Part shown: in pieces, positions 1 through 64,000 of the stretch
Layout of the letters: the number at the start of each line of letters is the position of its first letter
Numbering within the stretch: position 1 is the stretch's first letter
Source of the DNA: Corella eumyota
Lineage: Eukaryota > Chordata > Ascidiacea > Phlebobranchia > Corellidae
Direction: 5' to 3'
Assembly (NCBI GenBank): GCA_963082875.1
Contig: OY720097.1
Location: 7,076,501 to 7,140,500, forward strand
DNA length: 64,000 nt
Program-made: the position numbers and the translations under genes
Notes under the pieces: model-generated
What the model was told of the DNA's origin: nothing
What the model saw: the letters and a program-made list of their open reading frames with translations, nothing else
Databases searched by the model: none

Positions 1-267
1 AACTTTTTGGAATCCACTTTTTATATGTATCGGTACATTGCCTGCCTCGTGCATTTTAATGGTCACAGCTTACAACTTATATTTTTCACAAACAGCAGTT
101 TCTATACGCTTAAAGAAGTATAAATTTGACATAAATATTGGTGTAATATATATTGATATTCTTCACTGAGCGCCATTATATGGAAAATACATCCGACAAT
201 GAATAATATTTAATTTTTGAGTGTGTTTCGAAATGTATTTTAGTTGGGAAATTTTACATTATTTTAG

Positions 268-2410
<2,143 letters not shown>

Positions 2411-4988
2411 GTTTGTTTCTTATTTCGTGTGTTTTATTTTTACTGTACTTTTTATTTTAAGTCGTGTTTTTTCTGTTGACACAAGAAACATGTATATATT
2501 TCTAGTAATTTGCATTTTAAAAAGTGTTACAGCGAGAAGATATAAAACGAATAACTTTTTAATTTTATTTAGAAAAATTTTTAATCATGTAATAAAAAGT
2601 TTTTTTTATTTAGATATTTACCCATTTTTTTATTTTTTCGGACCAATTTTACGATTCTTGCAATACAAATTCCTTTCAATATAATTTATTATAATAAACT
2701 TCGGCTTCACAAAAGATTTAGGGAAATAGCCGATTTTTAATAAAAGCGCGCTTACCATAATCTTTATGGGTATTACATCAGTATATTTTGTCAAGTTAAA
2801 ATATTGGTTGTCTAAAAATTTTGAAAAATTCAAAATTTAAATGTTCACGTTTAACAAATATATTTAAAAGGTTACGTATTCTAAAAACGCTGCATTCTGA
2901 ATAATATTTACATTTATCGAAAAGGGATTTTGGGTCTATATCCGGAAAAAGCGTTTCCAACTGTCTGGGCTTACAGAATTAAATCCCTTGCCAACAATAG
3001 AACGTGGAAAGCCTAGAAGGTGTGCACAAAAGAGTTTAAATCGTAAACCCGAAATCCGCGAAAACATAACGAACTCTAAAAAGCAAGTAACATGCACTTA
3101 AAACAGATTTAGACTGTAATCTTTGAAGCTGTTTGACTTTTGGCATGTAAGCTGTAATTACATCGTTTACAGCAGATGACGATCGGGTTTAGATACCTCG
3201 AAAACAGATTTTTTAATTTGAGATTATGGTTTTCGCTACAGCGAGTCTATAATGAGAAAACAATGATGAGTACCCTGTAATTATTTTAAATTAATTTTGA
3301 GCATGGAAAGGAATTAGCTATTGGTGAATAAAATAAGTTTTTCGGTCAATTTAAATGGTAATTTACGCGTACCACAATACCCCGAAATATCCAAGTGCTT
3401 GGAGCGAGTTAAAAATAGTTAAACCGTGTGTGTAATGACGGATATATATTTCCAAGTACTTTCATAACACTTTTCTCTTCAGAACTACTTAATCAACTCA
3501 AATGGGATACCCGAGTTACATCATTATGTTGCGTCACTAATCCCACGAAATCCATCAATTTCTTAAGCTACGTGCAAAGAAGACCGCGGGTTTATTTTAA
3601 ATGATAAGCAGTATGTATACGTGAGACAATCTTTTTAACAAGCGGTTTTAGCTTACGATAAATAGATTTTCTTATCCGAGATTTGGAAGTTACGTCATTT
3701 TTAATTATGACCACTATATTGTTATTTCAAACAGATAATTTCTCTTTATTGATTATTGCAACAACGTAACGCAATTTATTTTAAGACATATTGTTAAAAA
3801 ATTATTTTTAGAAAGACGTGTAAAAATATGAACTGAGAAATCTATAGTGAGAATAATGTAAAGCGAAGTAAGTGAGAAATTGTTTATCACAAAAAGCCAC
3901 TAGGCACTAATCTCTTGTTTACTTTCTATTGTTGGAAAGGTATTTAGTTCTTGGAAGTTGGAGGAAATAAACGATGTTTATTAAACAAGAAAATACTTTG
4001 GAATTTCACGAAAATTAAAATTTATTTATTTAACAGAAAACAGTTATTTATACAGTAGCTGGCATAGAAGATGTTGTTATTTGGCAAATAAATCATTTAA
4101 TTTACCCCCTAATAAATTCCAAAAAATTAGAGAGATTCCATTGTCACTACTCAGCACATTGATTAATATAAAAATAGCTAGCGAATGACAATACAGGCCA
4201 AGAATAGCAGTGCTTATTTCCCTTTTTCGCAGTTACATAGTAAAGGGCGATTGGCAAACGATCATTTCATTAAACTTGAGCACAGACTTCGCCGCATGTT
4301 GTTGGTTTCCTTTTAAGCCCGTGTTCGAGCGAGCTCGTTCGCCGGAATTAAGTGCTCGGTTTGCGGCAGAATAACATCAAAGAGCCACAACGTTTGAGAT
4401 TATTATATGTCATGCACAGAGAGACGAAAGTCTTAGTACCTCAAGCAGTAAATGACCGACTTTAGGTCAGTGGGTGATTAATTTCTGCTTTTGCATATTG
4501 TAATAGGAAATAATTACAGTTTTGTGGATTTCAAAGGTAAATTTAATTCAACTTAGAGCCTTAATTAAAAAATATGAAAAATGCGCTTTTTAAATGTGGT
4601 GTCAATGTTAGAAAATGATAAAAATTATTAAGTTAAACTCTATATTGAATTTCGATTAGGTCAAGCGGTTTTTACTGTTTTTATTTCCGCGTTTTAACTT
4701 TCTTCAGTTACTTTCAAACCATAATATTTTGAGGCAAAGCGGGTGTTAAAATTAACTCGGGGCGATCGAATTACAAAAATAAAAACAGTTTCGGCGTTGT
4801 TAGTGAACTTTTTTAAACTCGTTTTTTCAACAGTTTTAATTCTTTTATACTTGATCGATGATAACAAAGTTTACGGTAGACAAATCTACATGATTTCAGT
4901 TTGGAGCAGCCAATAACCTTACTTGATTTGTTTACAGATTTAAAATTGTATATTTGTGTACTGATAGCGCATTGTAAAAGCTATATAA
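2411..4988. other. Intergenic: presenilin 3' flank and CCN upstream region
   Basis: No gene recognised. The first few hundred bases are probably presenilin 3' UTR. A less AT-rich stretch at about 4240-4400 includes a CGAGCGAGCTCGTTCG near-palindrome, and could be proximal regulatory DNA of the CCN gene. That role is inferred only from position and composition. Confidence 0.5.
2591..2596 (+). terminator. Candidate presenilin poly(A) signal
   Basis: AATAAA lies about 180 bp after the presenilin stop codon. A second AATAAA is at 2693-2698. Either would give a short 3' UTR. The region is so AT-rich that the hexamer alone is weak evidence. Confidence 0.45.
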
Positions 4989-7900
4989 ATGAAAAACTTT
5001 GTTTTTAAAATAATTCTGTTGACCCTGGCGATCGAGTTCGGATCTTCACGGAGTTCAAGACGGTTGTTTCCGAGATTTGATCTTAACAACCAAACAGCTG
5101 GTTCAGAAACGGACTTTTACCCACAGGTAGTTTTCTATTTACAAAACAACTAAGTTTACGTATATTTTCATACATTTCTCACGCCAAGTCTTTCGGTATC
5201 CCAACCAACTTTTTGATTAGGTAATTTAATATTTAAAAAATAACGATTTTTTTAGAATAATAGTTAACATTTCCCACGGTAAAGGGTTAAGTTGGACGCA
5301 TAGTCTATCAATCAAATACTTCAACGTGTGTAACCAGTAATATTTTAGGTGACATTAAATATTGTAATTTACCACACCGCGCGTAAGTCGTCGTGAATAC
5401 TTGTAAGTATGTGATTAACAGTTATTGGTTGGTAAATTTGTTTGTAGTTTACGAGTATAGTAAAATCTCTTAAACACTTTAAAGAATGAGCGCGTGAACA
5501 ATAAAATATGCCCCTTTCGAACGACGTGCCGTTGCCAAAAACCTAAAAATATTTGAATTAATTTCGGAAGTTGAAAGACTTGGTTGAATCAAAAGAATTT
5601 CGTATTATTACCCGCACATGTGTTTGTATGACGTCATTAAAATTCCGTAGCTGTGTTTTTTATTATAATTGGCATACCTACATTTGGAACGGGATAGCTT
5701 TCCTGAAAAGAAATTATGTTGTTGTCGATCTAATTATATTCGTAAACATGTATTTTCTATTCACGCGTACACGTGTTCAGGTGAAAAAATTTCCTGAATT
5801 TAGTTGTTAAGAATGTACGATCAAAGGTATTTCGCTTCGCCCTAATTTAAAATATTACCTTAAACCATTCCTTAAATCATTGTTTAAAATAATTAAGGTA
5901 TCATTTTATGTATATGTGTGAACGTGCATAAACTATGTATGCATTTTGTTTGTTTTTTAGTAAAATTATGATTTCGTTTTTGACACATAATCAATTTAAA
6001 CTTGCCGAAGGAGCGCATATTTTACCTATACCAAATCAACATGCGCAGTTATTGTAAATGTTTGTCTTGCCAAAAATAGTTCATGACATCGTTTATTAAA
6101 GCAAAAAATTAATTAAGTTAAAAACACCAAGGTTAAACGGGTTAAATACCCACTTGTTTTTCCTAAAAAGCAAATTTTAGATTACAATATTTGTTATCAG
6201 TAATATTCACACAGCACTTACGATCGCTAAATTTTGCTGATTATGTCATGAACTTCGAGCTGTCGGCTTAAGCGATTGTTTGCATATTTATACAAAAATT
6301 ATCTAAGATATGTTGTTCTACTTACCTAGTAAGTGTTAAGCTAACAATCATATTCCGGAAGTATTCAATCCGCAATGAATGACACATCAAATTTTCGCAA
6401 AATTCGTCACTTTCGGCTGAAGTGGAAGCATTTCAACTATGAGTGGCATGTTTTTGCCTATTAAAATGACTCTTGAGTCATCACAACACTTGAAGATGTC
6501 ATTTGTCTTACTTAAGATTGATTCAAGTAATGTCAGTCCTGATAAAATATTTATCTGTAGAAGGGAGATTCCTTGGAATGTCAAGACTGCAATTGTGGCC
6601 AGCCTCCGATATGTGCGCCGGGAGTTAGCCTTATAACGGACGGCTGCGGTTGCTGTAAGATTTGCAGCAAACAGTTACGCCAGGAATGTTCACTCAGAAT
6701 GATTTGCGATCCACACAAAAATCTATTTTGTGGCAGGGATGGCTTTTGCGAAGGTATGTTCAACTTGATAACTAGACCCATATATTTTTAGTTTTACGTA
6801 TTTTTCCTCGAAATTTGGAAGTTGAGTGAGACCGCACCTTGAGCAGTAAACCGACTAAATTAAAGTTCAACTCTCTGCTTTGATGTAATAGTGTGTGTAC
6901 ATTTGTTTTTGTCTAAACACATCTTAAAATGCCCAATATTGATTTATTACACCTACCATAAAATTTTAACGGCATTTTTAACTTTTAAAGATTATTGAAT
7001 GTATAATTATTAACATTTACAAAAAAACTTTTTGGTAAAAGTAAAATTGTGTTGTTTTAAGCTGATACTTTAAGTTATTAAGGCTATAAAACACCATTTC
7101 TTTACAGTTGTATTAAAATGTTAATTGGCGTTTAAATTTTTTGTACAACCAGTTTAACATACTTTGTTAGGTTTTTATAAAGCTTGACTTTTAAAGTTTG
7201 TTGTTGTTAACAATAATCGTGGTTTTATTTTTAGCAAGCCCGGGCCGAGCATGTATAGTGGGAGGGAAATGGTACGAAAATGGCGCTTTGATCAAACCGA
7301 CTTGTAAAGCAACCTGCTCTTGTGTTGACGGTGATATTGGCTGCGTTCCGACCTGTAGTGCTGCCATGAACAAGCCTCAATTGACTACACCAGGCTGCCT
7401 TCACCCTAAGTATGCCACCAAATATTATTTACTCAAAGTTGGCAGGAGTTATTTGATTTCAAAGTGATTGATTAAAAATTGCTTTTTATTGTTTGCTATC
7501 ATGACCGTAGAATTTAACAGATTCGCGCATTTGCTTATTGTTAATATTATATTACAGCCTCTACCCTCGTTTTACCTTGGGTTTTTAAATTTAAAACTAT
7601 TTAAAACTTTTTTGCGGCCAAAAATAACGAAAGAATTTATACTGTCGATATTTTGGGTGGTTTTTAATCAATTTAGTAATGTTTATTCTGCTTGTACACT
7701 AACATTTTGCAAACGGGTTTAATTTTTCCTGGAATTTTTTGTCAGCGATTTTGTGTATTGACTGTTAGGGTTATCTGTTCGCCAGTGATAATGTTGTGGT
7801 GACATTGGCAGCAAGCAAATATAAAGAGGCGCCAGTGTTAAAAACCACAAGACTTATAAAACTTTCAAAATTCGCCGGATTATATTAAAGTGTCACAAAA

Positions 7901-10448
7901 TATAAAATTGACAAATTTATAACAAATGGAATCTTGTACAATTTAAACAAATCATATTCAATACACCAACCTAAAGTCATAATTGTTAATTTCGTTTTTT
8001 AATTTAGGTTGGCACGAAAAAGGGGAGAATGTTGTGGTAAATGGATTTGCCCAGCTAACGGTACCTTAGATCCTAAATGGGAGCTAGTTGGAAATCAATG
8101 TAAGCAAAGTTTACTGATTTCAATTATTTTTATTTTTCGAATCAAAATTTTAATCGATTACACTGTGTTAGGTTTTGATTAGCTGATTATACAAACCGGG
8201 GCAATTAAACCGCATTACCTAATGTATTTTAGCGTAAAATATCTGCTACCGTTAAGTAAATGTTAGCAATGTCATGTAGAACATAAAAGTACACACTTAA
8301 TGTGATAAGACGGTTTGTTATTAGAAAACTAGGCTGCTAAACTTTTGGAATATAGGGCTTATCCATGTTGAATTCGGATTTGGTGAATTATAACACGATA
8401 TTGCGATTATGTAAGCGACATGAGGTCTGCTTTTTATTTAATCTAATTGACCAATTATAATTTAAAACCACGCAAAATTAAATGAATCGATACTGATTTA
8501 CGAGCGTGCCTTGCCGCATCTTTAACCATTTAAGCAAGGTTAATGACATAATGACTTGTTGTTGTTTCTGGGTAGGTGGTAAGGCTTTTAAGGTCGTCTG
8601 CCACCTCCAATAATGCAGAAAGCATGGCGATTATCACGTAACTGTAAACTTGAATAACCTATGCACGAAAACAGTTAATTAGTAAAATAAAGAAATGTGT
8701 TTGAGTGCAAATTCTTTAATTACTTACCAAAGCTCAGCAAAGTGCCGAAAAAAGTATTTTGCTAATTTTTAAAGCCGTTAAATGGATTAAAATTCGCACT
8801 GTCGAACCTCAATAGTGTAAGATAAATTAGGTTAACTTGCATTTCCTCTCACGCCTAAGTGCATGACGAAAAGTTCATGACGCGTGGTGTCTCCTTTTAT
8901 TTTGTTATTTCCCATGGGAATCGTGCTCGCATCCCAGACAAGTTAATAAACTTAACCTCTAATCATGTTATAGTGCGTAACAAATACGACCACACAATGC
9001 GGTGTTTGTTTAATAAAAACAAAAAATCCTAACTAAGCTGCAAAAAAAGCAATGACGTAAATTTATCAAAACGGGATTCAAAAAGTAAAGGTGCGGCTGT
9101 TAATTAAGTCCAGGCTGTGATTCGATTATAGAAAGGCTTAGGCGTGGACAGAAGGATTGGTCGATAGATTTACCGAATTACAATTTAATGCGCACTTGAA
9201 ATCGCGGTTCGATTACCCCGTTATAACAACACGGCTTACTGACCGAAGACGGATTTATTCGAGTTTAAAGGGAATTTTATTCGAGTTTAAAGGGAATTTA
9301 AGATAAAAATAAAATGCAGCGTCACAGGTCATTTATAGCGATAAGCACATTAAACCAACTCAATACAGTTGTTATTAAAACAAAATTAAAGTTCGCCCTT
9401 TATTATTAAATGAACTCTTTCTCGCTTTAACAGGGTCATACAGATTACTTAGTCTATTCTAACCTGATTAAGCTTCGACATTTTACAATAAATTATCTAT
9501 GAGTTTTTAGAAATTCAGCTAACTCTTTAATGGTTAAAATAATTCTTTTTTGTCGTTTTCATTAGTTAAACGAAAGCCTGAAAGGGTTATCACCTTTAAA
9601 GGCTCGTGTATGATTCAAACGTCGGAATGGTCCCCGTGTTCGAAATCGTGCGGATTCGCCATTTCCGACCGAGTTTCGAACGACAACGAGGATTGTAAGA
9701 TGACCAGAGAGGTCAGATTGTGCAACATCCGACCGTGTACCCTACAGGCTTCTGACGTCACTTCTGTAAGTTATTTTTGTATTTTATTTTTGTAACCGAC
9801 ACTCGACTGCACCCTAAATTCCTTGGGTAATGATTTTTCATGTTGAAATTGGCACCCTTTTTTAATTAAAATAAAGTTAAAATTTAATCTGGCGCGCCTA
9901 ATTTTGTTAAGGAATGTCTTAAATTGATATCCTTGATTTTTGTGGTAAAAAAAACTCATTTAAAATCCCGTAACTTAGGAATTTTGTAAAGCGATTTATT
10001 AACTGGCAAAGGAGTTAGTCATTAAATGTAATTGGTGCTTTAACCTTTGTTGGAATTCAGGCAAATATGTGCGTTGCAACAATAATACCAGATTATGCGC
10101 AGAAGAATTTAATAACCTGTTATTTTATAGAAAAAACGGTCTTGTCGCCGGCAAATCCGCAATCGCAGAAAAGTGCGTTTTTCTTTAACTGGTTGTCTCA
10201 GTAGCAACACTTACCGACCAAAATATTGCGGGTTCTGTGGCGACAAATGCTGCAAGCCAAAGAGCAGTAAGACTGTTTCAATTAAATTCGAATGCAAATC
10301 CGAAGAGACAGGAAACGTGACGTCGACATTTAAAAGAAACATGATGATGATTAAAAAGTGTTCATGTGAAGGGGAGTGCATGGGCGACAATGATATTTTT
10401 TCAATGTCGTTTAAATCAGTGGGTTCAGACACTTGGAAAGAAAATTAA
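4989..10448 (+). CDS. CCN-family matricellular protein (CYR61/CTGF/NOV-like), complete
   Basis: Six exons in matching phase: 4989-5126, 6561-6753, 7235-7409, 8008-8099, 9566-9765 and 10131-10448; about 371 residues, the usual CCN length. Exon 1 encodes a signal peptide ([20 protein letters not shown]). Exon 2 is the IGFBP module ([32 protein letters not shown]). Exons 3 and 4 together make the VWC module ([25 protein letters not shown], then GECCGKWIC). Exon 5 is the thrombospondin type 1 repeat ([19 protein letters not shown]). Exon 6 is the cystine-knot CT module ([30 protein letters not shown]). Family members are secreted, bind integrins, proteoglycans, BMP/TGF-beta and VEGF, and guide matrix and skeletal development. 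The start ATG is preceded by an in-frame TAA at 4974-4976. Which vertebrate CCN it is closest to cannot be settled by eye. Unusual points: the VWC module is split by an intron, and TATATAA directly abuts the ATG. Confidence 0.93.
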
Positions 10449-12239
10449 AGTTTCAAGTACGATTTAAAAACGCCTTGTTTCATTTGTGACGTTTATTAAT
10501 GCGCATAACCAACATTTAATTTAACCCTTAAACAATCTGCACGACAATAACTACCAAGTGTTGGTATTAAGTTAAGGCTGTAAATATTTTCTTAAAAGTA
10601 GCATATTTCGCCAAAATTTGGTTTATATGATCTATTTCATTTTTATGTAAAAGTTAACGTATTTAGATAGTGCTATTATTAATTTAGTGTTTTTTTTATT
10701 TACGTGCTTTGTGCTAAGTTTCTATTTTGTCGGTAGACTTCAGTAATTTTTATCTTTTTTATTTTGTTATTTATATTAAGCTTTTTTCACTGTCTTGCTT
10801 AAATAATTCGCTTGGTCACATTTCTTATTCTTTTACTGTTTTAAAATGTGGGTTTAAGAATAATTATCAAGTATTGAGTTTGTAATTTCAAAAAAAATTC
10901 TGGTTGATTAATTCTAAAATTTCATATCAATGTTAAACCAACTTGGATTTAAGCCAAAATAGACGTGCATGATGTGTCAATGTAAAAGTTTCTCAATAAT
11001 TTAATTTAAAGTTAACATATCATAATAATCTAGTAAACGGGGATTTTTTTATTTTTTTAAATACATAAAGACAATATGAATTCAGTCACGTGCGACCTTT
11101 TATAATAAAGTATGTATTAGTTTAGGAGTCTAGGACCAGGTTTGTAGCTGACAATGACAAAATTTAATTTTTGGAAACCTTTTTGACATAAAAGTTTTAT
11201 ATCAACATGAGTAATACTATCTACCAATGTGATTTTTTCATGACCAGATTAATTGCAGACTAATACATGAGGTACAGTGTTTTAATATACTGTATAAGTG
11301 TATTCAAATTATGGGTATGCTTTAATTATTCTTCCTAATGTCAATAACAATAAAAAAATGTATTTATAGAAATCAAATGTTTAATTCAAAAACTTATTTT
11401 TGTGTTAGTTCTTGGTGATCTAAGGCAAGCAATTATTCATTATAAGAAGAGATAGAAAGTTAGAGAATTTCATTTATAAAAATATTTAATATTATACATG
11501 GAAATAGAAAATACTATTTTTTAAACAAAACTGTAATTATAGAGTTTAAAATCAAATCCTTTTGTACAAAACAAAAATTAATTTGTTTGTTTATACTGTT
11601 TGAATAAATAAAATTTGTTTTTAGTTTACAAATAAATAAATTGATTGTTTACTGTTTCTGAATTACTTTTTTTAGTATCTAAATTGATCCAATGCTTTTT
11701 GACTTTAATTTTTATTAAATTTAATGTTAACTTATCATTAAAATACTTTCCCTTTATTTAAACATATTATTAGAAATATCAAATAAACTTTATAAAGATT
11801 GATTGCTGTTAATATATTTTTTCTTATAATTTAACAACTTTTTTATATATTCTGTGTATAGATACAATTAAGAAAAATGAAAATAGATTTAAGATAATTA
11901 CATAAGACTTTTTGGAATCTTATTATAAGTATGTAAAAAAGAAAATAAAAAATCAAAATGCATTCGTCCAATTTAGATACTAGAAAAAGGAATTCAGGCG
12001 AATGTTAAAAAATAAAAATGTTAAAGCACTTTTTTAGACTAAGTTTACATGACGCCATAAAAACAGAAAATCATAATAAAGCACACAATATATCAATAAA
12101 TAAATGTCAGATTTAAAAAATATGTCATTTTAAAATTAACTTTAACATTTTAAGCGAAGTGATTCATTAAACTTCATTTCAATAAAATTGCAAAAAAAAT
12201 TAATATATATAAAAGTTATGTGTCAAAGACTTTCACTAT
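10449..12239. other. AT-rich intergenic DNA, no gene seen
   Basis: Begins with the CCN 3' flank; an AATAAA lies at 11104-11109, about 650 bp past the stop. No conserved coding segment, structured RNA or clear tandem repeat was seen. Confidence 0.5.
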
Positions 12240-12240
12240 A

Positions 12241-12730
12241 AATGTACTAAATTGAAAAACATAAATAAATAGGTTTTATTATAACTCAGATGGCCTAATT
12301 TTTATTTAAAATAAAACATTTAACAAAAATTTCCAGTCAAAAATGTTTAAGCCAATTTAAATTTATGTATAACTGGGTCACGTGACTGTTTTACGGCCAA
12401 TGATACAGTATACAAAATTTAAAAATGTTAAATGAAAATTAATTGTTTTATTAGATCCGCCGGACTAGTTAACGTACGTATAAATATTTTTTTTAATATT
12501 AATATTCCTACTAGTTATGACACTGTTAGTATGAATGTATAAAATTGGAAAACCTAAATAAATATGCTTTTATTATAACTGCGATGGCCTGATAAACATT
12601 CATGATAAAACAATTTGCGAAAATATTCACTCAAAAAAATTTGAGCTTATTGATATTTTTTGTATAATTGGATCACGTGACTGTTTTTCGACTAATGATA
12701 TTATACACATAAAATTTAAAAAATTAAAAT
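12241..12730. repeat. Two diverged copies of a ~293-bp repeat with a GTCACGTGAC/ATCACGTGAC core
   Basis: Copies starting near 12241 and 12534 share many short blocks in the same order: an AATGTA(C/T)-AAATTG(A/G)AAAAC opening, TTTTATTATAACT, GATGGCCT, then a (G/A)TCACGTGAC core (12378 and 12672) followed by TGTTTTTCG-like sequence. They sit just before the main satellite and share its CACGTG core and a similar unit length, so they look like an older outlying branch of it. Confidence 0.6.
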
Positions 12731-13410
12731 TATAAAATCAAACAATAATTTCGTGCTTTTTCGAGTCAATGCGTTTTAATTGGTATAATTGTTGAAAAAA
12801 AATTTGACCAATGTTATATGGTACCAATATAGGTCAAGTGAGGTCAACTTAGGCAAATAAAAAATATCGCTAACTTTTTTTCTACTAAATATTTTTGCAA
12901 ATTTCTTTATCTAATATGTTAGTTAGGTTAATGCGCATTTAATAAACCGCTAAATTTTAAATTTTAAATTTGGCAAAAATTTGGTAAATGTGTCATAACT
13001 TTATTAAATATTAATATTTTTTTATAAATACGCTATTAAGGTCAATGCGTTTCAATGGGCATAAGTGAAATTCAATTTATAATTTTGAGTGTTAGTTAGG
13101 CTTGTGCAGTTCCAACAGAACAATTATTTTTTGATTTAAAATTTAAAATTTTTATTTTTTTAATTTATATGCAATACCATGGGCCAAAAATATCACGTGA
13201 CTTATTTGAACCCAAAATAAAAGTTGGCTCAAACTTTTGTTCTACTGGAAATTTCTGCGAAATGTTTTATCTTGAACGTTGGTTAGGCCAATGCGCGCCT
13301 AATTAAATATAAAATTTCAGGTTTTGAGATTTCATAAATTTTTAATAAAAATTTCATAACTTTTATGAATATTAATATTTTCGAAAAATATTTTGTAAAC
13401 ACGGTAATTG

Positions 13411-15281
13411 GACCTGTGCAGTTCTAACACAACAATTACTTTTCGATTTAAAATTTTTTATTTTTTTTTTTCAATTTGTATGCAATATCATTGGCCAAAA
13501 ATATCACGTGACCTAATTAAACCCAAAATAAAAATTACCTCAAACTTTTGTTTTACTGAAAATTTTCGCGAAATGTTTTATCTTGAATGTTAGTTAGGCC
13601 AATGCGCGTCTAATAAAATACAAAAAATTAGGTTTTGAGATTTCATAAATTTTTAATAAAAGTATCATAACTTTTATGAATATTAATATTTTTGAAAAAT
13701 ATTTTGTAAACACGGTAATTGGACCTGTGCAGTTCTAACAGAACAATTATTTTTCGATTTAAAATTTTTTATTTTTTTTCAAAAAATTTGTATGCAATCT
13801 CATTGGCCAAAAATATCATGTGACCTAATTAAACCCAAAATAAAAATTATCTTTAACTTTTGTTCTACTCAAAATTTTTGCAAAATGTTTTATCTTGAAT
13901 GTTAGTTAGGCCAATGCGCGCCTAATTAAATATAAAATTTCAGATTTTGAGATTTCACTAATTTTTAATAAAAGTTTCATAACTTTAATGAATATTAATA
14001 TTTTCAAAAAATATTTTGTAAACACGGTAATTGGACCTGTGCGGTTCTAACAGAACAATTATTTTTCGATTTAAAATTTTTTATTTTTTTAAAAAAAATT
14101 TGTATGCAATATCTTTGGCCAAAAATATCACGTGACCTAATTAAACCCAAAATAAAAATTATCTCTAACTTTTGTTCTACTCAAAATTTTTGCAAAATGT
14201 TTTATCTTGAATGTTAGTTAGGCCAATGCGCGCCTAATTAAATATAAAATTTCAGGTTTTGAGATTTCATAAATTTTTAATAAAAATTTCATAACTTTTA
14301 TGAATATTAATATTTTCGAAAAATATTTTGTAAACACGGTAATTGGACCTGTGCAGTTCTAACACAACAATTATTTTTCGATTTAAAATTTTTTATTTTT
14401 TTTCAAAAAATTTGTATGCAATCTCATTGGCCAAAAATATCACGTGACCTAATTAAACCCAAAATAAAAATTACCTCAAACTTTTGTTTTACTGAAAATT
14501 TTCGCGAAATGTTTTATCTTGAATGTTAGTTAGGCCAATGCGCGTCTAATAAAATACAAAAAATTAGGTTTTGAGATTTCATAAATTTTTAATAAAAGTA
14601 TCATAACTTTTATGAATATTAATATTTTTGAAAAATATTTTGTAAACACGGTAATTGGACCTGTGCGGTTCTAACAGAACAATTATTTTTCGATTTAAAA
14701 TTTTTTATTTTTTTTCAAAAAATTTGTATGCAATCTCATTGGCCAAAAATATCATGTGACCTAATTAAACCCAAAATAAAAATTATCTCTAACTTTTGTT
14801 CTACTCAAAATTTTTGCAAAATATTTTATCTTGAATGTTAGTTAGGCCAATGCGCGCCTAATTAAATATAAAATTTCAGATTTTGAGATTTCACTAATTT
14901 TTAATAAAAGTTTCATAACTTTAATGAATATTAATATTTTCAAAAAATATTTTGTAAACACGGTAATTGGACCTGTGCGGTTCTAACAGAACAATTATTT
15001 TTCGATTTAAAATTTTTTATTTTTTTAAAAAAAATTTGTATGCAATATCATTGGCCAAAAATATCACGTGACCTAATTAAACCCAAAATAAAAATTATCT
15101 CTAACTTTTGTTCTACTCAAAATTTTTGCAAAATGTTTTATCTTGAATGTTAGTTAGGCCAATGCGCGCCTAATTAAATATAAAATTTCAGGTTTTGAGA
15201 TTTCATAAATTTTTAATAAAAATTTCATAACTTTTATGAATATTAATATTTTCGAAAAATATTTTGTAAACACGGTAATTG
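13411..15281. repeat. Higher-order trimer (~936 bp) repeated twice inside the satellite
   Basis: Six units fall into three types in order A-B-C-A-B-C. Type A has GCAGTTCTAACACAAC, type B GCGGTTCTAACAGAAC or GCAGTTCTAACAGAAC with CATGTG, and type C an A-rich TTTTTTTAAAAAAAATTTG linker. Matching types lie 936 bp apart, and the segments at about 13408 and 15279 look identical over at least 186 bp. This is higher-order repeat structure like that of centromeric satellites. Confidence 0.8.
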
Positions 15282-15659
15282 GACCTGTGCAGTTCTAACA
15301 CAACAATTACTTTTCGATTTAAAATTTTTTATTTTTTTTTTTCAATTTGTATGCAATATCATTGGCCAAAAATATCACGTGACCTAATTAAACCCAAAAT
15401 AAAAATTACCTCAAACTTTTGTTTTACTGAAAATTTTCGCGAAATGTTTTATCTTGAATGTTAGTTAGGCCAATGCGCGTCTAATAAAATACAAAAAATT
15501 AGGTTTTGAGATTTCATAAATTTTTAATAAAAGTATCATAACTTTTATGAATATTAATATTTTCGAAAAATATTATGTAAACACGGTAATCGGACCTGTG
15601 CAGTTCTAACACAACAATTATTTTTCGATTTAAAATTTTTTATTTTTTTTTTTTAAATT

Positions 15660-16910
15660 TGTATGCAATATCATTGGCCAAAAATATCACGTGACCTAAT
15701 GAAAACCAAAATAAAAATTACCTCAAACTTTTGTTTTACTGAAAATTTTCGCGAAATGTTTTATCTTGAATGTTAGTTAGGCCAATGCGCGTCTAATAAA
15801 ATACAAAATTTTAGGTTTTAAGATTTCATAAATTTTTATTAAAAGTTTCATAATTTTTATGGATATCAATATTATTGAAAAATATTTTGTAAACACGGTA
15901 ATTGGACCTGTGCGGTTCTAACACAACAATTATTTTTTGATTTAAAATTTTTAATTTTTTTTCAAAAAAATTGTATGCAATATCATTGGCCAAAAATATC
16001 ACGTGACCTAATTAAACCCAAAATAAAAATTATCTCAAACTTTTGTTCTACTCAAAATTTTTGCAAAATGTTTTATCTTGAATGTTAGTTAGGCCAAAGC
16101 GCGCCTAATTAAATATAAAATTTCAGATTTTGAGATTTCATAAATTTTTAATAAAAGTTTCATAACTTTTATAAATATTAATATTTTCGAAAAATATTTT
16201 GTAAACACGGTATGTGGACCTGTGCGGTTCTAACACAACAATTATTTTTCGATTTAAAATTTGTTATTTTTTTTTTAAATTTGTATGCAATATCATTGGC
16301 CAAAAATATCACGTGACCTAATGAAAACCAAAATAAAAATTACCTCAAACTTTTGTTTTACTGAAAATTTTCGCGAAATGTTTTATCTTGAATGTTAGTT
16401 AGGCCAATGCGCGTCTAATAAAATACAAAATTTTAGGTTTTAAGATTTCATAAATTTTTATTAAAAGTTTCATAATTTTTATGGATATCAATATTATTGA
16501 AAAATATTTTGTAAACACGGTAATTGGACCTGTGCGGTTCTAACACAACAATTATTTTTTGATTTAAAATTTTTAATTTTTTTTCAAAAAAATTGTATGC
16601 AATATCATTGGCCAAAAATATCACGTGACCTAATTAAACCCAAAATAAAAATTATCTCAAACTTTTGTTCTACTCAAAATTTTTGCAAAATGTTTTATCT
16701 TGAATGTTAGTTAGGCCAAAGCGCGCCTAATTAAATATAAAATTTCAGATTTTGAGATTTCATAAATTTTTAATAAAAGTTTCATAACTTTTATAAATAT
16801 TAATATTTTCGAAAAATATTTTGTAAACACGGTATGTGGACCTGTGCGGTTCTAACACAACAATTATTTTTCGATTTAAAATTTGTTATTTTTTTTTTAA
16901 ATTTGTATGC
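15660..16910. repeat. Recent dimer (~622 bp) duplication inside the satellite
   Basis: The unusual variants CGGTATGTGGACC (tatgtgg at 16211 and 16833), CCTAATGAAAACC and TTATGGATATCAATATT each occur twice, 622 bp apart. The two 622-bp blocks appear almost identical by eye, pointing to a recent two-unit duplication separate from the trimer to its left. Confidence 0.8.
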
Positions 16911-19849
16911 AATATCATTGGCCAAAAATATCACGTGACCTTATTAAACCCAAAATAAAAATTATCTCAAAATTTTGTTTTACTGAAAATTTTCGCGAAA
17001 TGTTTTATCTTGAATGTTAGTTAGGCCAATGCGCGTCTAATAAAATACAAAATTTTAGATTTTGAGATTTCATAAATTTTTAATAAAAATTTCATAACTT
17101 TTATAAATATTAATATTTTCGAAAAATATTTTGTAAACACGGTAATTGGACCTGTGCGGTTCTAACACAACAATTGTTTTTCGATTTAAAATTTTTAATT
17201 TTTTTTCAAAATATTTGTATGCAATCTCATTGGCTAAAAATATTACGTGACCTAATTAAACCCAAAATAAAAATTATCTCAAACTTTTGTTCTACTCAAA
17301 ACTTTTGAAAAATGTTTCATCTTGAATGTTAGTTAGGCCAATGCGCGCCTAATTAAATATAAAATTTCAGATTTTGGGATTTCATAAATTTTTAATAAAA
17401 TTTCATAATTTTTATGAATATTAATATTTTGTAAACACGGTAATTGGACCTGTGCGGTTCTAACACAACAATTATTTTTCGATTTAAAATTTTTTTTTTA
17501 AATTTGTATGCAATATCATTGGCCAAAAATATCACGTGACCTAATTAAACCCAAAATAAAAATTACCTCAAACTTTTGTTTTACAAAAAATTTTCGCGAA
17601 ATGTTTTATCTCGAATGTTAGTTAGGCCAATGCGCGTCTAATAAAATACAAAATTTTAGGTTTTGAGATTTCATAAATTTTTAATAAAAATTTCATAACT
17701 TTTATAAATATTTATATTTTCGAAAAATATTTTGCAAACACGGTAATTGGACTTGTGCGGCTCTAACACAACAATTATTTTTTGATTTAAAATTTAAAAT
17801 TTTTTTTCAAAAAATTTGTATGTAATCTCATTGGTATGTAATCTTATTAAAAATATCACGTGACCAAATTAAACCCAAAATAAAAATTACCTCAAACTTT
17901 TGTTTTACTGAAAATTTTCGCGAAATGTTTTATCTTGATTGTTAGTTAGGCCAATGCGCGTCTTATTAAATACAAAATTTTAGGTTTTGAGATTTTATAA
18001 ATTTTTAATAAAAATTTCATAACTTTTATAAATATTAATATTTTCGAAAAATATTTTGTAAACACGGTAATTGGACCGGTTCTAACACAACAATTATTTT
18101 TCGATTTAAAATTTTTTATGTTTTTTCAAAAAATTTGTATGCAATCTCATTGGCCAAAAATATTACGTGACCTAATTAAACCCAAAATAGAAATTATCTC
18201 AAACTTTTGTTCTACTCAAAATTTTTGCAAAATGTTTTATCTTGAATGTTAGTTAGGCCAATGCGCGCCTAATTAAATATAAAATTTCAGATTTTGGGAT
18301 TTCATAAATTTTTAATAAAAGTTTCATAACTTTTATGAATATTAATATTTTCGAAAAATATTTTGTAAACACGGTAATTGGATCTGTGCGGTTCTAACAC
18401 AACAATTATTTTTCGATTTAAAAATTTTTATTTTTTTTTTAAATTTGTATGCAATATCAATTGCCAAAAATATCACGTGACCTAATTAAACCCAAAATAA
18501 AAATTACCTCAAACTTTTGTTTTACTGAAAATTTTCTCAAAATGTTTTATCTTGAATGTTAGTTAGGCCAATGCGCGTGTAATAAAATACAAAATTTTAG
18601 GTTTTGAGATTTCATAAATTTTTAATAAAAATTTCATATCTTTTATGAATATTAATATTTTCGAAAAATATTTTGTAAACACTGTAATTGGACCTGTGCG
18701 GTTCTAACACAACAGTTATTTTTCGATTTAAAATTTTTTATTTTATTTTTTTAAATTTGTATGCAATATCATTGGCCAAAAATATCACGTGACCTAATTA
18801 AACCCAAAATAAAAATTACCTCAAACTTTTGTTTTACTGAAAATTTTCGCGAAATGTTTCATTTTGAATGTTAGTTAGGCAAATGCGCGTCTAATAAAAT
18901 ACAAAATTTTAGGTTTTGAGATTTCACAAATTTTTAATAAAAATTTCATAACTTTTATAAATATTAATTTTTTCGAAAAATATTTTGTAAACACGGTAAT
19001 TGGACCTGTGCGGTTCTAACACAACAATTATTTTTCGATTTAAAATTTTTTATTTCATTTTTTTAAATTTGTATGCAATATCATTGGCCAAAAATATCAC
19101 GTGACCTAATTAAACCCAAAATAAAAATTACCTCAAACTTTTGTTTTACTGAAAATTTTCGCGAAATGTTTTATCTTGAATGTTAGTTAGGCCAATGCGC
19201 ATCTAATAAAATACAAAATTTTAGGTTTTGAGATTTCATAAATTTTTAATAAAAATTTCATAACTTTTATAAATATTAATATTTTCGAAAAAATATTTTG
19301 TAAACACGGTAATTGGACCTGTGCGGTTCTAACATAACAATTATTTTTCGATTTAAAATTTTTTATTTTTTTTCAAAAAATTTGTATGCAATATCATTGG
19401 CCAAAAATATCACGTGACCTAATTAAACCCAAAATAAAAATTACTTCAAACTTTTTTTTTACTGAAAATATTCGTGAAATGTTCAATCTTGAATGTTAGT
19501 TAGGCCAATGCGCGCCTAATTAAATATAAAATTTAAAGTTTTGAGATTTTGTCAATTTTTAATAAAAGTTTCATAACTTTTATGAATGTTAATATTTTTG
19601 AAAAATATTATGTAAACATTATAACAAGACCTACGGTTCTAACAGAACAATTATTTTTTGATTTAAAAGTTTTTATTTTTTTAATTTGTATGCAATATTA
19701 TTGGCCAAAAATATCACGTGACCAAATTAAACCCAAGAAATTTTCGAAAACAATTAAAAAAAGACAAAAATATGAGCATTTTTTTATTTCACGTACATAG
19801 AATCGTTCGCGTGACCTTTTGACCTATCAAAACTGTATACTTAGCTCGA

Positions 19850-19882
19850 CCAATGATCATACAAGGGTTGTATGATCATTGG
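19850..19882. repeat. Perfect 14-bp inverted repeat (hairpin), 5-bp loop
   Basis: CCAATGATCATACA at 19850-19863 pairs with TGTATGATCATTGG at 19869-19882 around AGGGT. It sits about 100 bp past the satellite edge, and a GCTCGACC motif is present on both sides. No terminator role is expected in this genome. It may be a fold-back left by a mobile element or by replication slippage. Confidence 0.8.
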
Positions 19883-20109
19883 CTCGACCAAAAACATTTT
19901 TTTGCCGCAAAACTTAAAATTTTATAGTTATTTAGAATTGTAATGACGTTACTAAGATTCAAGATAAAGAAAGTTTTTCAAAAGGTCAAAAGAACAAAAA
20001 TTTGAGCACTTTTTTTCTTTGCGTATTCATAACATAAATTTTTTTTATATTACAGGTCGTGACTATAGCTATGCGTGAAAAAAAAAATGAAAAAAAAATT
20101 ATTTTCAAT

Positions 20110-20184: not shown

Positions 20185-20293
20185 TATATAAGCGTTACTT
20201 ATTTATATACATATGTTTGCAAGAGACTTTCGATAATAAAAAAATATTATGATCAATTTTATTAAACAAAAATGATTTCATAAAGTTGAACAA

Positions 20294-20588
20294 CCGGCAG
20301 CGTGGTGTAGTGGTAAGAACACTTGCTACACCACATATGAGGTCGAGGGTACAATCCCCACTGATCTCATGCTGTAGCGTCCTTGAGTAAGGTGCTATAA
20401 ACGGTGTGGACTCCTGCTGAGCCAGCACTTGATCAGCAGTATAATTATCGCGCATTTATAATCTATATTATCCCAAACTGCAACAAGCAACTCGAGACTG
20501 GGTCGGAGTAACTGATGTTACTCTATGTTTAAGTCGCGCATTCGACTTTCCCACATCGAGGATAAAGATATATACAAAAAAAAAAAAA
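20294..20588 (+). mobile_element. Full-length tRNA-derived SINE
   Basis: Starts CCGGCAGCGTGGTGTAGTGG (box A region) and continues to GGTCGAGGGTACAATCCCC (box B region), followed by a roughly 200-bp body (GAGCCAGCACTTGATCAGCA, GACTGGGTCGGAGTAACTGA, CCCACATCGAGGATAAA) and a poly(A) tail at 20575-20588. The same sequence recurs on the minus strand at 49100-49375 and 51291-51579, and as older pieces elsewhere in the window, proving a dispersed family. Ciona is known to carry a tRNA-derived composite SINE (Cics-1, from memory); identity with it was not checked. It would be moved by a LINE reverse transcriptase supplied in trans. Confidence 0.9.
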
Positions 20589-21823: not shown

Positions 21824-21979
21824 TTATTATGGTTCGAAATCTTAGATTTCGAAACATATTGTTATTGTCAGTGTATTTATTATGGTTCGAAATCTTAGAT
21901 TTCAAAACATATTGTTATTGTCAATATTATTATTATTATGGTTCAAAATCTTAGATTTCGAAACATATTGTTATTGTCC
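21824..21979. repeat. Three tandem copies of a 53-56 bp palindrome-bearing repeat
   Basis: TTATTATGGTTCGAAATC is followed by TTAGATTTCGAAACATATTG three times, landmark starts at 21831, 21884 and 21940. GAAATCTTAGATTTC inside each copy is close to a perfect palindrome. Confidence 0.85.
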
Positions 21980-24620
21980 GTATTTTTATTATTTTTATTC
22001 TTACTAATCCAAATTTTGAAATCGAATAACTTTTGATTTTGTGTAAATAAATTTTTAAAATTAAAGTATGTTGTTTATTATCATATTGTGTTCCAATCCT
22101 CCTATTTTGATAATTTAAATATTATTAATTAGTAATTAATAGGTGTTTGTTTATTAAAATTTAGGGATTGTTATTAGGTTTTCTAATTTTGGTCAGTTAT
22201 ATATCATAATATTAATAACTCGAAAATGGAATAAAAATTCAATTTTTGTTTGTTTATTATATTTAAATTCTTGTTTGTTTATTAAAAGTTAAAGTTTGAT
22301 ATTAACCATTCAAAATGTAGTATAATGTATTTCATAATATTACTAAATAAAAAACAAATTTAAAAAATAATTTTTGTTTGTTTATTATATTTAAATGCTT
22401 GTTTATTTATTAAAAATCAAAAATCCTTTTTAAGCATTCAAAACTTTGTGTAATGTATATTCTGATATTAACAACTTAAAATTGGGTTAAAAAAGTAATT
22501 TTTGTTTGTTAAGTATATTTAATTAATTGTTTGTTGATTGAAAAATTAAAGATTAATATTTTAAAATTTTTAAAATAATTTTGTTCTGAAATTTCCTTAG
22601 TCCAACAATTAAATACGTAACATTTGATTTATTAATTTAATTAGGATTCTTAATTAAGTAATGTTTATGCATAAATTTATTTATTAATACAGATTAATTT
22701 TAAAAATAATTAAATGATTTCGAACCATATTTTATTTATTAAATAAATCTAGTTATTATTATTATTAATCTTTTCCAGTGTCTTATAAGCTGTAAATTTT
22801 GAGTCAACCTAACTTTTGTTTGTGAACATTTACAGTTTTGAAATTTTAGTATGTTGTTTATTATCAGATTGTGTTTTCATTCTCCTATTTACAACATTTA
22901 ATTATTACTAATTACTAATTAATAGGTGTTTATTTAATAAAATTTAAAAATCGTTATTTATTTTTTAAATCTTGGCCATTTGTATACCATGATATTGGTA
23001 ACTCAAAAATGAATTAAAATTATAATTTTTATTACTCATTACTAATTAATAGGTGTTTATTTATTAAAATTTAAAGATTGTTATTTATTTTTTTAAATCT
23101 TAGCCATTTGTATATCATGATATTGGTAACTCAAAACTGAATTAAAATTTTAACTTTTCACTAATTACTAATTAATAGGTGTTTGTTTATTAAAATTTAA
23201 AGGTTGTTATTAATTTTTTTTAATCTTGGTCAATTGTATATCATGATATTACTAACTCAAAAATGAATTAAAATTAAAATTTTTATTACTAACTACTTAT
23301 TAATAGGTGTTTGTTTATTAAAATTTAAAGATTGTTATTAGGTTTTTAAATTTTGGTCGGTTATATCTTATAATATTTATAATTTGAAGATAATTAAAAA
23401 ATAATTCTTGTTTGTTTGTTATATTTAAATGCTGGTTTGTTTATTAAAAATCAAAGGTATGTAATATTCTTGGTTAATGTTTATGCATATATTTTTTTAT
23501 TTATAAAATTTTATGTTAAAAGTAATCAAATAATTTCGAACCATATTTTATTTATCAAATAAATCTAGTTATTATTTTTATTTTTATTCTTACTAATCCG
23601 AATTTTGAAATCAAATAACTTTTGTTTTTGTGTATATAAATTTTTAAAATTTTAGTATGTTGCTTATTATCATATCGTGTTTCAATCCTCCTATTTTGAT
23701 AAATTAAATATTATTAATTAGTAATTAATAGGTGTTTGTTTATTAAAACTTAGAGATCGTTATTAAGTTTTCAAATTTTGGTCAGTTATATATCATAATA
23801 TTAATAACTCGAAAATGGATTAAAAATTTAATTTTTGTTTGTTTATTATATTTAAATTCTTGTATTTTTATTAAAAATTAAAGTTTGATATTCAGCATTT
23901 AAAATGTAATATAATGTATTTTATGATAATAGTAATTAAAATACATGTTTAAAAAATAATTTTTGTTTGTTTATTTTATTTAAATGCTTGTTTATTTATT
24001 AAAAATCAAAAATCAATTTTGGGAATTTAAAATTTAGTAAAATGTATATCTTGATACTAACAACATAAAACTGGGTTTAATTAATTTTATTTGTATAATA
24101 TATATAAATGCTTGTTTGTTTATTAAAAATCAAAGTTATGTAATATTCTTAGTTAAGGTGTAATTATTTTTTTTTTATAAAATAACAAATCAGTGTGAGT
24201 TTAACGCTTGAATAATTTAATAGCGTTCTGGTCGCCGTCAAAAATCGTCCTTTTCGCTGTCCATTAAAGTAAAATATATTGGTTGAAAATTTAAGTAAAA
24301 TGTTAAAGTATAAGTAAAAAATGTGTAAATTTTTTTTTAATTGTTTTGTTATTATTATATTTTAATACTCGTTTGATTACCAAAAATTAGGATCGGTATT
24401 TTGCTTTTAAATTTAGTTTACTTTTATATTACAATATCAATGAATGCGTGTTCGTTTGTTAAAATTAGGTTTAAATTAAAAAAAGTTAATATTTAAATTT
24501 ATAATTTATTTAATAAACCTACTAAATAAATTATATTTATAAAAAAAATCAAACGATTTCGAACCATATTTTATTTATCAAATAAATCTAGTTTAATTAC
24601 TAGTTTTATTTTGTTCTCTA
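21980..24620. repeat. AT-rich composite repeat field
   Basis: Built from related modules. A 126-128 bp tandem repeat centred on TAATTAATAGGTGTTT has aatagg landmarks at 22921, 23048, 23174 and 23302. A longer module around 21990-22280 returns at 23580-23870, about 1.59 kb away, with matching order (TCCTCCTATTTTGATAA, GGTCAGTTATATATCATAAT, ATTAATAACTCGAAAATGG). The module CGAACCATATTTTATTTAT occurs at 22721, 23538 and about 24560, and once more far away at 36771. No ORF or terminal inverted repeats were found, so the origin (non-autonomous element or slippage) is open. Confidence 0.75.
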
Positions 24621-31029: not shown

Positions 31030-31795
31030 TTTTGATAACTACTTAAACAGCATTCCTAATTTTTCCTACCCCTAAAACAGTATTCCTATTTTACTTCTAA
31101 AACAGGACTACAGTATTCCTCCAAAAAAGATTTCAGTATTCCTCAAAAAAAATTCCGGTATTCCCCAAAAAATATATCCAGTATTCCTCCAAAAATAAAT
31201 TTCAGTATTCCTTTAAAAAATTGCAGTATTCCTCCAAAACAATTCCGGTATTTCTTCGAAAAAATTTCAGTATCCATCAAAAAAAATTGCAGTATTTCCC
31301 CAAAAAAATTCCAGTATTCCTCAAAAAAATCTAGTATTCCTCAAAAACATTCCAGTACTCCTCCAAAGAAGTTCCAGTATTTCTCCAAAGAAGTTCCAGT
31401 ATTTCTCCAAAGAAATTTTAGTATTCCTTTTAAAAAAATTCCAGTATTCCTCCAAAGAAATTCCAATATTCCTCCAAAAAAATTTCAGTATTCCTCCAAA
31501 AAAATTCCAGTATTCCTCCAAAAAAATTCCAGTATTCCTCCAAAAAAATTCCAGTATTCCTCCAAAAAAATTCCAGTATTACTCCAAAAATCTTCCAGTA
31601 TTCCTCCAATAGTTCTCAAAAAAAACTCCAGTATTCTTCCAAAAAATATTTCCAATATTCTTTCAATAAAAATCCAGTATTCCGCTCAAAAAATCTAGTA
31701 TTTCTTCATATAAATTCCAATATTCCTCAAAAAAATAAATTCCAGTATTTCTTTAGAAAAATTCCAGTATTCCTCAAAAAAAATTCCAATATGTG
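31030..31795. repeat. 22-bp-class minisatellite (CCAGTATTCCTCCAAAAAAA)
   Basis: More than 30 imperfect copies of a CCAGTATTCCTCCAAAAAAA-TT unit, most regular at 31440-31600. On the minus strand it would read as EEYWNFF-type repeats, but this is a by-product of the unit. It lies in the putative intron upstream of the exon array. Confidence 0.95.
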
Positions 31796-34222: not shown

Positions 34223-34699
34223 CAAATCACGTTCCCGCGTTTCAGTTTTGAGCAATTCTTGCGGCAACATTCCAACGCTAATTGTTTTTTTTAATTAATA
34301 AGTTAGGGTAATTATCCTCATTTTAAAGATACAGTTTACTTGTTTAATGTGTTAATATCATATTTTTGCAGAGTCTTTAAAAATAAAGTGTTTTTAAATT
34401 TATTTGTGAACATTTTACATTGTTTTAAATATGTTCTAAAAAAGCTTTTTCTTACCAATTTGTTTATCATAAAATTATTGTTATAAGTCATTGTAACAAC
34501 TAGGTTCGATTTCTGGTGAAAGCTCATTTATTACATATATTTATTACACACATTTCGCTTTTAAATTTTGTTTGATTACATACCACTTTAACTAAAAAGT
34601 TAATTTTGTTCGTTAATTATACTTAAATGCTTTCTTTAATAGAATGTTTAAATAGTTATGTTGCCTTTTTTACATGATATTGAATTTACAAATTTTGTA

Positions 34700-34866
34700 G
34701 ATTATACATGCCCAATAATTAAGCTGCCGATTAAGTATTGGCCCAGCAGAAGTCTACACCGTTTATAGCGCCTTACTGTAGGGCGCTACAGCACAAGAGT
34801 AGTGAGAATCGAACCAAGGACTTCATGTATTGGAGTTAAGTGTCTTAACCACTACACCATGCTGCC
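34700..34866 (-). mobile_element. Truncated SINE copy (tRNA head and part of body)
   Basis: The plus strand runs from AGATTATACATGCCCAATAA through GGCCCAGCAGAAGTCTACAC and GAATCGAACC to CCACTACACCATGCTGCC, matching the reverse complement of the SINE 5' half. The 3' body and tail are missing. Confidence 0.8.
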
Positions 34867-36180: not shown

Positions 36181-36254
36181 TTATAACTTTTATGAATATT
36201 ATAACTTTTCTGAATATTAATATTTTCGAAAAATATTTTGTAAACACGTTAATT
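36181..36254. repeat. Isolated fragment of the 311-bp satellite
   Basis: ATAACTTTTATGAATATT and AATATTTTCGAAAAATATTT followed by TGTAAACACG match the end of the satellite unit from 12.8-19.7 kb, with one internal short duplication. It lies 16 kb from the array and directly borders the exon 2-like duplicate. Confidence 0.85.
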
Positions 36255-41328: not shown

Positions 41329-52896
<11,568 letters not shown>

Positions 52897-53497: not shown

Positions 53498-55678
53498 TTT
53501 ATTTGCAACTATTCACAAATTAAAATACACTTGTTCAATAAACAAAAAGTGTTTAATCCAATCATATATATTCTACAAACAATTAGAAGAAAACAACATT
53601 AGGTATTATAAGAGATTCGAAGGTGGTTGTAATGTATATAATCATGTTTAAAAAGCAAATTTTCGAGCAATTTAAAAAACTGTTAAAAATTAAAGGTTTA
53701 AATTAAATAAGTTTAATAGATTTGAGGATATAGGTTCAGTAATTACAATAATGATTTAGCTATTTAGTACATGATAGTGTTAATGCCTATGGTAAATAAA
53801 GAGCAACTTATCCAGCATAAATTCGGAATTAATGGTTGATTTACTTATTTATGGATTTAAAATAAAGCACACAAAAGAAATAACATAAGCAATTAAAAAG
53901 ATGTGACCATACACATAGCAGCATTTCGACAATTAGAGATATATATATTTTTATAACCAGTCGCTTAAATCTATAATATTTTAACACGATATATGGGCTT
54001 ATATATTAGTATAAAATATATACTGGATTTTGCAGTGAAAACAAAAGCAGAGCTAAGAATGAAAAACAAAACAACAAACAAACGATTGCATTGCAATGCC
54101 AAATCGTGCTTAATGCAGCTAAACAAGTTACTTATACTAATAAAGCAAAAGGTTTTGTATCACAGCAAATTTTAACTTGACCTAAATTTTGATTTCAAAT
54201 TAACTTAAAAGCATGAAATATTAAAAAAACTGCATTTTAATGAAAGTATGTCAGTTGATGAGTAATATTTTGTTAACATTTTGGTCCTTTAACATAGGAA
54301 TGTACAGTAAAATAATTGACAAAAAAAATAAGACATTAGTGTTTCTATACATGCTATTATTGTTTAGATAAGATAATATACAAATTATTTTTTATATAGA
54401 GAAAATTGGTAGTTAGAAAAATATACAAAGTAAATTATAAAGCTATACTTGGAAATCTTGGAAAATACCAATGAGCTGTTATTATTATGCCACAGGTATG
54501 TACAAAATACAGCATAGACTGTTGATGATTTATAAAGAGGTTATTTGACACAGAAAATGTACTTTTCAAAGATAGCGCGGCGGTCCCGCATATTTCTCCG
54601 TTGACGTAAAAAAATAAGAAGAAAAAGACAGCTAAAATATGATAACAACAACACATCTAAATCCAACACAAGTTTGTTACGCAACCCAAGCTCGTTCTTT
54701 CATCTTATTTTTTATCATTTCTATATTTCCATCAACATCTGGTTATTAATTTCCTTTCTCAAACAAACGATCGAACGATAAAATCTTTTCGCGAAAAATG
54801 TGAAACAAAAGTGGTAGGATGACGTCATCGATAGGTGGCAGTGTCGGAAGGCGAAAAAAGGCAGCTACGCCGAGTTGGTGCTTATCAAAATAAACGATGA
54901 AAAATCTCGAATACGAATAAAAAACGGACGCGACTCGTCCAGTTGGGCAGTGACCGAGCAAACGTCAATAGGGCAGTGGAAATTTTCATTTAAAAAAGGT
55001 ATAAAATATTGGGCAGTATAGGGCACGTGGCAGTTCTTTAAGGCACCGATTACAATGTCGATATACAAAAAGTTCGCATAAAAAACTATATGGTGGCAAA
55101 TTATCAAAAATTTTGGCACAGTAGCATCACAAAAATAACTGTATGATTGGTATAGGTATTTACCTGGTATAAGTATTTTACCCTTGTTTAAAATAACGTG
55201 GCTTATACATTCTAAGCGGCCACGTGGGTTAATCTGGAAAACGCTCAAAATCATAAAAGCTTTTAAACGAAATCTACGTGAATACCCAAATATAAACACG
55301 CACACAAATAAAAAAAAGTAAGTGGTAAAAAAAGAAGTTCAATATATCTCTGGAGTGAAGTGTAAGATCTTTTTGTACAAATATATTAGGAAATATTTCG
55401 CGGCCTGCTTCTTTTCCTTGTGATGAAAATCATAAAAATTCCCGAAAAAGGCAATCGAAATACCGGTCTGATCCGGTATTTTAACGGCTCGAAGTATGGC
55501 AATATACATGTACACTGTGGCTTTTTGCGTTCCAATGGCTTTAAAGTTGGTAACATTTTGATTGAGGTTGTTTTTAGCATTTCGATGGCTTAAAATCATA
55601 AAATGTCGGCTAAAGACGTTTTAACCCAAGCCAAGGCTGTAGATAGCAAACCATGGCTCAAAAATTTTGGGACTCGGG
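53498..55678 (-). other. Probable long 3' UTR of the cyclin D gene
   Basis: Downstream of the cyclin D stop the first minus-strand AATAAA found is at 53503-53498, which would give a 3' UTR of about 2.2 kb. D-type cyclin mRNAs often have long, unstable 3' UTRs, and this one is AT-rich toward its end. The 146-codon minus ORF at 55305-54865 lies inside and looks like chance. A TGACGTCA palindrome is at 54820-54827. Confidence 0.4.
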
Positions 55679-63493: not shown

Positions 63494-64000
63494 CTGAAAA
63501 AAAAAATCATTAAAGTTTTTTGCAAAATATAACTTTAATATTTTTTTAAATAAAAACGAGAATATATTTAAATTAAATTCTGCCAACTTCAATAAAACGT
63601 TTTTTATAAAACAAAATCAAATTTTTGAATTTTTTTTTTTACTTATAGCAGACAACGGAAAAAGTTTTTAGTTTCTATTGCCCGATACGCTAAAACTTAA
63701 AATGAATAACCCCAGATTTATCAAAAAGCAGATGGTCGATGGGAAACAGTATTGCACTGGCGGTATGCGGGATTTATTTACTTTTCGAAATGGCAAAGTT
63801 AAAGGTAAACATTCGAAAACAAGACCAGTGTATTTATCTCGCAAGTAGGCTGCACTTTTCTAAATTTTAAAGCAACTTAAACCTATAAAAAATATTGTTT
63901 TAAACAAGGCATTCACTCTATACAGCTTTTAATACAACATAACTATTTCTTTTACTGTTACATGAAATCGTTTCTTTTAAAATGGAATTAGTAATTGGGT
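63494..64000. other. Left part of the next cyclin D intron
   Basis: The preceding cyclin D exon was not found before the window end. A small plus-strand ORF at 63702-63850 is discussed among the rejected items. Confidence 0.4.

Follow-up and report, generated by a model that had tools for sequence, protein, structure and literature searches.

A 312-bp satellite array with duplicated multimer blocks and flanking inverted relics in the ascidian Corella eumyota

A tandem repeat in which most units carry the same palindrome, CACGTG, raises the question whether this E-box is kept because a protein binds it or is simply inherited and multiplied along with the unit that contains it. Such an array is found in the 64,000-nucleotide stretch of Corella eumyota DNA analysed here (hereafter, the window, to which all coordinates refer). 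We propose, with a probability of roughly 0.8, that this is a local, non-coding, intergenic satellite that re-expanded from an older array, in which CACGTG was inherited and protein binding is incidental or unproven.

Extent and composition of the array

Tandem Repeats Finder reported a single array at positions 13103-19736, with a period of 312, 21.4 copies, 91% matches and a score of 10610, a regularity far beyond chance. When cut in a single phase, the array extends over 13099-19740 on the forward strand and comprises 21 full units of 298-319 bp (mostly, 310-312 bp) and one partial unit, all in head-to-tail order. A tandem array of a non-coding unit with this period, copy number and match level qualifies as a satellite. 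The pairwise identity of the units within the array is 81-100%, compared to about 72% identity with the inverted units described below, which is the pattern of concerted evolution, and the outermost units are more diverged than the rest (81-90% identity to the other units for U01 and 84-91% for U21). These observations agree with an earlier note on this DNA with respect to the number of units (about 22, of ~311 bp) and the divergence at the edges, but not with respect to the start of the array, which the note placed at 12780: the segment 12780-13099 is a degenerate direct copy (69% identity), not a normal unit.

The A+T content of the array is 76%, and its CpG observed/expected ratio is 1.63, that is, there is no CpG depletion, which speaks against methylation as the cause of the CACGTG losses discussed below. 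The 312-bp unit also shows A/T periodicity, weakly at 10.4 bases and more strongly at 8.6 bases, in an analysis run without a control and not relied on here. An Rfam scan detected no RNA families at the gathering threshold, an exact search of viral contigs with two unit cores yielded no matches, and a full-text literature search for a 20-base stretch of the unit found nothing. The satellite locus is new, yet ordinary in kind.

Degenerate copies around the array

A profile search with the unit identified inverted relics on both sides of the array, an addition to what the earlier note described. On the 5' side, two old inverted units lie in tandem on the reverse strand at 12193-12760 (12193-12461, E = 1e-45, and 12483-12759, E = 2e-51, both values flattered because these two units, along with the array, went into building the profile). 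A single array unit used as the BLASTN query likewise recovers both of them (7e-20 and 3e-31). They are arranged head-to-tail with a period of about 298 bp, are 72% identical to the array consensus and 71% identical to each other, and both contain TCACGTGA. Between these units and the array, a degenerate direct copy at 12831-13029 on the forward strand covers unit positions 92-302 (E = 1e-21). On the 3' side, two degenerate inverted pieces, corresponding to unit positions 69-151 and 110-230, are present on the reverse strand within 19755-20026 (19755-19840, E = 0.003; 19906-20026, E = 1e-8). In addition, a lone 70-bp fragment (unit positions about 240-311, 88% identity) is located at 36183-36252 on the forward strand (profile match 36195-36252, E = 5e-9). 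Shuffled controls for the profile search gave no match below about 0.9. The presence of relics in both orientations flanking the array suggests that the present, young array is embedded in what is left of an older array that was rearranged.

The dispersed fragment and the presence of both orientations might also be taken to indicate an origin of the unit from a transposable element (a MITE or a Helitron-like element harbouring internal tandem repeats), in which case the relics and the 36-kb fragment would be separate insertions; there is a precedent in the bivalve transposon CvA, which has 156-bp tandem cores with 312-bp dimers (PMC5874043). However, a search for long or terminal inverted repeats inside the unit detected short palindromes alone, and no element ends were found in it. 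Furthermore, the inverted units themselves form a head-to-tail tandem. Such an origin thus appears unlikely compared to the remains of an older array.

Monomer types and block duplications

Eleven diagnostic sites in near-complete linkage divide most of the units into two types with about 90% identity, A (U02, 05, 08, 09, 11, 13, 15, 18, 19, 20) and B (U03, 04, 06, 07, 10, 12, 14, 17), with U01, U16 and U21 being mosaics. Starting from U02, the order of the units is A B B A B B A A B A B A B A (mosaic) B A A A (mosaic). In the unit tree, strong support is limited to pairs made by block duplication (U03/U06 and U09/U11), and U10 and U12 are identical; the tree does not resolve most of the remaining units, as expected under exchange between units.

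A 936-bp ABB trimer occupies 13282-15563 on the forward strand, with copies at 13282-14217 and 14218-15152 and a partial third copy at 15153-15563 that reproduces 13282-13692 over 411 bp without a single difference. Units three apart in this region show 98.1, 99.0, 99.7 and 97.1% identity, compared to a mean of about 92% for neighbours, and the comparison of 13282-14373 with 14217-15309 reveals 10 mismatches and one gap in 1093 positions. Several of these differences cluster in a 77-bp patch at 14366-14442 (forward strand), within the A-type unit U05, where the second copy has B-type sequence identical to that of U03 and U06; the tract is conversion-like, that is, it looks as gene conversion would leave it. 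Further downstream, a 622-bp AB dimer is duplicated exactly at 15645-16941 on the forward strand: 15645-16319 and 16267-16941 are identical over all 675 bases, and units two apart show 99.4 and 100% identity. The next 622 bp downstream already contain 33 differing bases. Given that the dimer copies are exact and the trimer copies differ by ~1%, the dimer duplication would be the younger of the two if mutation rates are equal.

These multimers are more alike than their own monomers (100% identity for the dimer, about 99% for the trimer and about 90% between A and B), as in higher-order repeats, but the dimer is present in two copies, and the trimer in two copies and a part, rather than in many successive copies. 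These blocks are local multimer duplications accompanied by a short conversion-like tract, and not a long higher-order array. The excess identity at 936 and 622 bp confirms the trimer and the dimer that had been reported at 13.4-15.3 kb and 15.7-16.9 kb, respectively, and that we locate at 13.28-15.56 kb and 15.65-16.94 kb. The suggestion that several separate exchange events occurred, of different sizes, is likewise supported by the two monomer types, the exact dimer, the apparently slightly older trimer and the 77-bp tract in U05.

A 675-bp exact repeat is the type of stretch that assemblers may duplicate or collapse, so that the identical blocks might be assembly artefacts. An artefact would not readily produce the 77-bp patch and the several single-base differences between the trimer copies, an argument that applies to the trimer and not to the exact dimer, and overall, this explanation seems quite improbable.

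The CACGTG motif

The exact CACGTG is present in 18 of the 22 units, as anticipated by the description of a palindrome in nearly every unit. The other four read CATGTG (13817 and 14753; probably, a single event copied along with the trimer) or TACGTG (17244 and 18164). With recent duplicates counted once, the variation of CACGTG is 0.033 per base; the mean for all 6-mers is 0.053, and half of them vary no more than CACGTG does. Within the array, then, the motif is unremarkable, varying like the median 6-mer. The earlier note described the palindrome as retained in nearly every unit and specified beforehand that conservation no better than that of the flanking bases would refute its reading; the array shows such ordinary conservation.

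The relics give a more mixed picture. The motif with its flanks has the form TATCACGTGACC in the array and GTCACGTGA in the old inverted units. The inverted relics retain GC positions less than AT positions (about 0.55 vs 0.77), and other G/C positions are jointly kept in both inverted units in 36-40% of the cases. Among the 34 8-mers with at least 4 GC positions, TCACGTGA is the only one kept whole in both inverted units; permutation of the kept positions within each base class yields p = 0.004 for TCACGTGA and 0.06 for any such 8-mer. This retention could hint at special preservation of the motif, with the caveat that the two inverted units possibly share ancestry. Overall, CACGTG is retained in 2 of the 4 old relics: it is lost from the direct copy at 12831-13029 and reads CACGCG in the first 3' inverted piece. 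The notion of palindrome retention is thus largely unsupported; when extended to the relics, it survives as a weak hint for the inverted units and fails for the other two.

Binding of a bHLH protein to CACGTG in the array is possible. More specifically, a bHLH-zip protein (of the USF, MITF/TFE or Max kind) might bind the motif, which selection would then maintain, the array being a cluster of such sites. The unique retention of TCACGTGA in the inverted relics is compatible with this scenario, as is the fact that transcription factor sites have been reported in satellites generally (PMC9324158); a literature search on E-box, bHLH and satellite DNA together returned unrelated papers alone, and one on satellites with CACGTG yielded a single paper matching all of its terms, which concerned sloths. 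Against it stand the median-like variation in the array, the 4 units that lack the motif, its disappearance from two relics, and the abundance of CACGTG elsewhere in the window, where 14 instances occur outside the array and the relics (1-12150 and 20030-64000) compared to 4.0 expected from dinucleotides. We consider selection for binding, with the array acting as a satellite RNA promoter, a sponge or a heterochromatin nucleator, quite unlikely. It is very unlikely, too, that selection for a bHLH-zip protein kept the E-box across two rounds of array turnover, making the array an intergenic binding-site cluster.

Genomic surroundings

The array is intergenic. Pfam searches identified presenilin exons (1.0-2.1 kb) and a gene for a CCN-type growth factor with IGFBP, TSP1_CCN and cystine-knot parts (6.6-10.4 kb) upstream of the array, and a DEAD-box helicase gene on the reverse strand (about 44-48 kb) downstream, so that the surroundings are ordinary gene-bearing, AT-rich DNA. 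No centromeric signs were seen within these 64 kb, where the array is flanked by genes. For most stretches, the CpG observed/expected ratio is close to 1; in the helicase gene region, it is 0.61, a pattern that would fit invertebrate gene-body methylation.

The window contains several other features. A SINE-like element is present in 4 copies (20288-20587, 51286-51585, 49100-49375 and the shorter 34698-34866), with 77-93% identity to the first. It reaches a length of about 300 bp, carries TGGTGTAGTGGTAAGA and GGTCGTGGGTTCAATCCC as A- and B-box-like stretches in its tRNA-like head, and terminates in an A-rich segment. A second tandem repeat, at 21981-24147, has a 128-bp unit, 17-19% GC and several blocks of differing identity, and a 22-bp minisatellite, CAGTATTCCTCCAAAAAAATTC, at 31111-31792 is strongly strand-skewed, with several reading frames open over long distances. 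An ARAGORN call of tRNA-Asn(att) at 21887-21962 falls inside a 53-56 bp tandem repeat and is probably spurious. Across 54000-64000, the GC content rises from about 28% to about 40%, with a CpG observed/expected ratio of 1.35; the frames tested there contained no recognisable coding sequence, with one Pfam match below the cut-off. A different isochore, an insertion or a contig join could account for this shift.

Proposed history and comparison with known systems

Around the demonstrated array, blocks and relics, we infer an order of events, a mechanism of exchange and a lack of function. An older array of the 312-bp unit would have been broken up and partly inverted, after which a piece in the forward orientation would have expanded via unequal crossing-over (or slippage, or gene conversion). 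The expansion would have kept two monomer types, with the ABB trimer and the AB dimer being the latest block duplications. The founding unit would have carried CACGTG, and homogenisation, by copying the motif, would account for its presence in most units. The point that counts against an incidental motif is that both inverted units keep TCACGTGA whole, which would fit some selection on it. The locus preserves a compact, legible history of satellite turnover, from an older array and its inverted relics to a newer array with two recent block duplications of different sizes, and would matter more only if the E-box were bound and selected.

In primate alpha satellite, diverged monomers are arranged in multimers, which resemble one another more closely than adjacent monomers do, and the edge units are diverged. 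The present array shares both features, although it differs in having 2-3 copies per multimer, a 312-bp unit and genes on both sides. The CvA-type bivalve transposons, with their tandem core of 156 bp and 312-bp dimer (PMC5874043), resemble the present unit in the tandem arrangement and in the 312-bp length, which in CvA is that of a dimer, a likeness by description. In contrast to CvA, no element ends and no sign of a 156-bp subunit were found here, and the A+T content is 76% compared to about 54%. Satellite DNAs of the root-knot nematodes Meloidogyne form simple and higher-order arrays with conserved short motifs (PMC3694981). Their motif is CENP-B-box-like and located at monomer junctions, whereas CACGTG lies inside the unit, with no link to the block breakpoints seen in the array. 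By description, nevertheless, the Meloidogyne satellites and the present array have in common that simple arrangements occur together with higher-order ones, that monomer types are shuffled, and that diverged monomers share a short motif.
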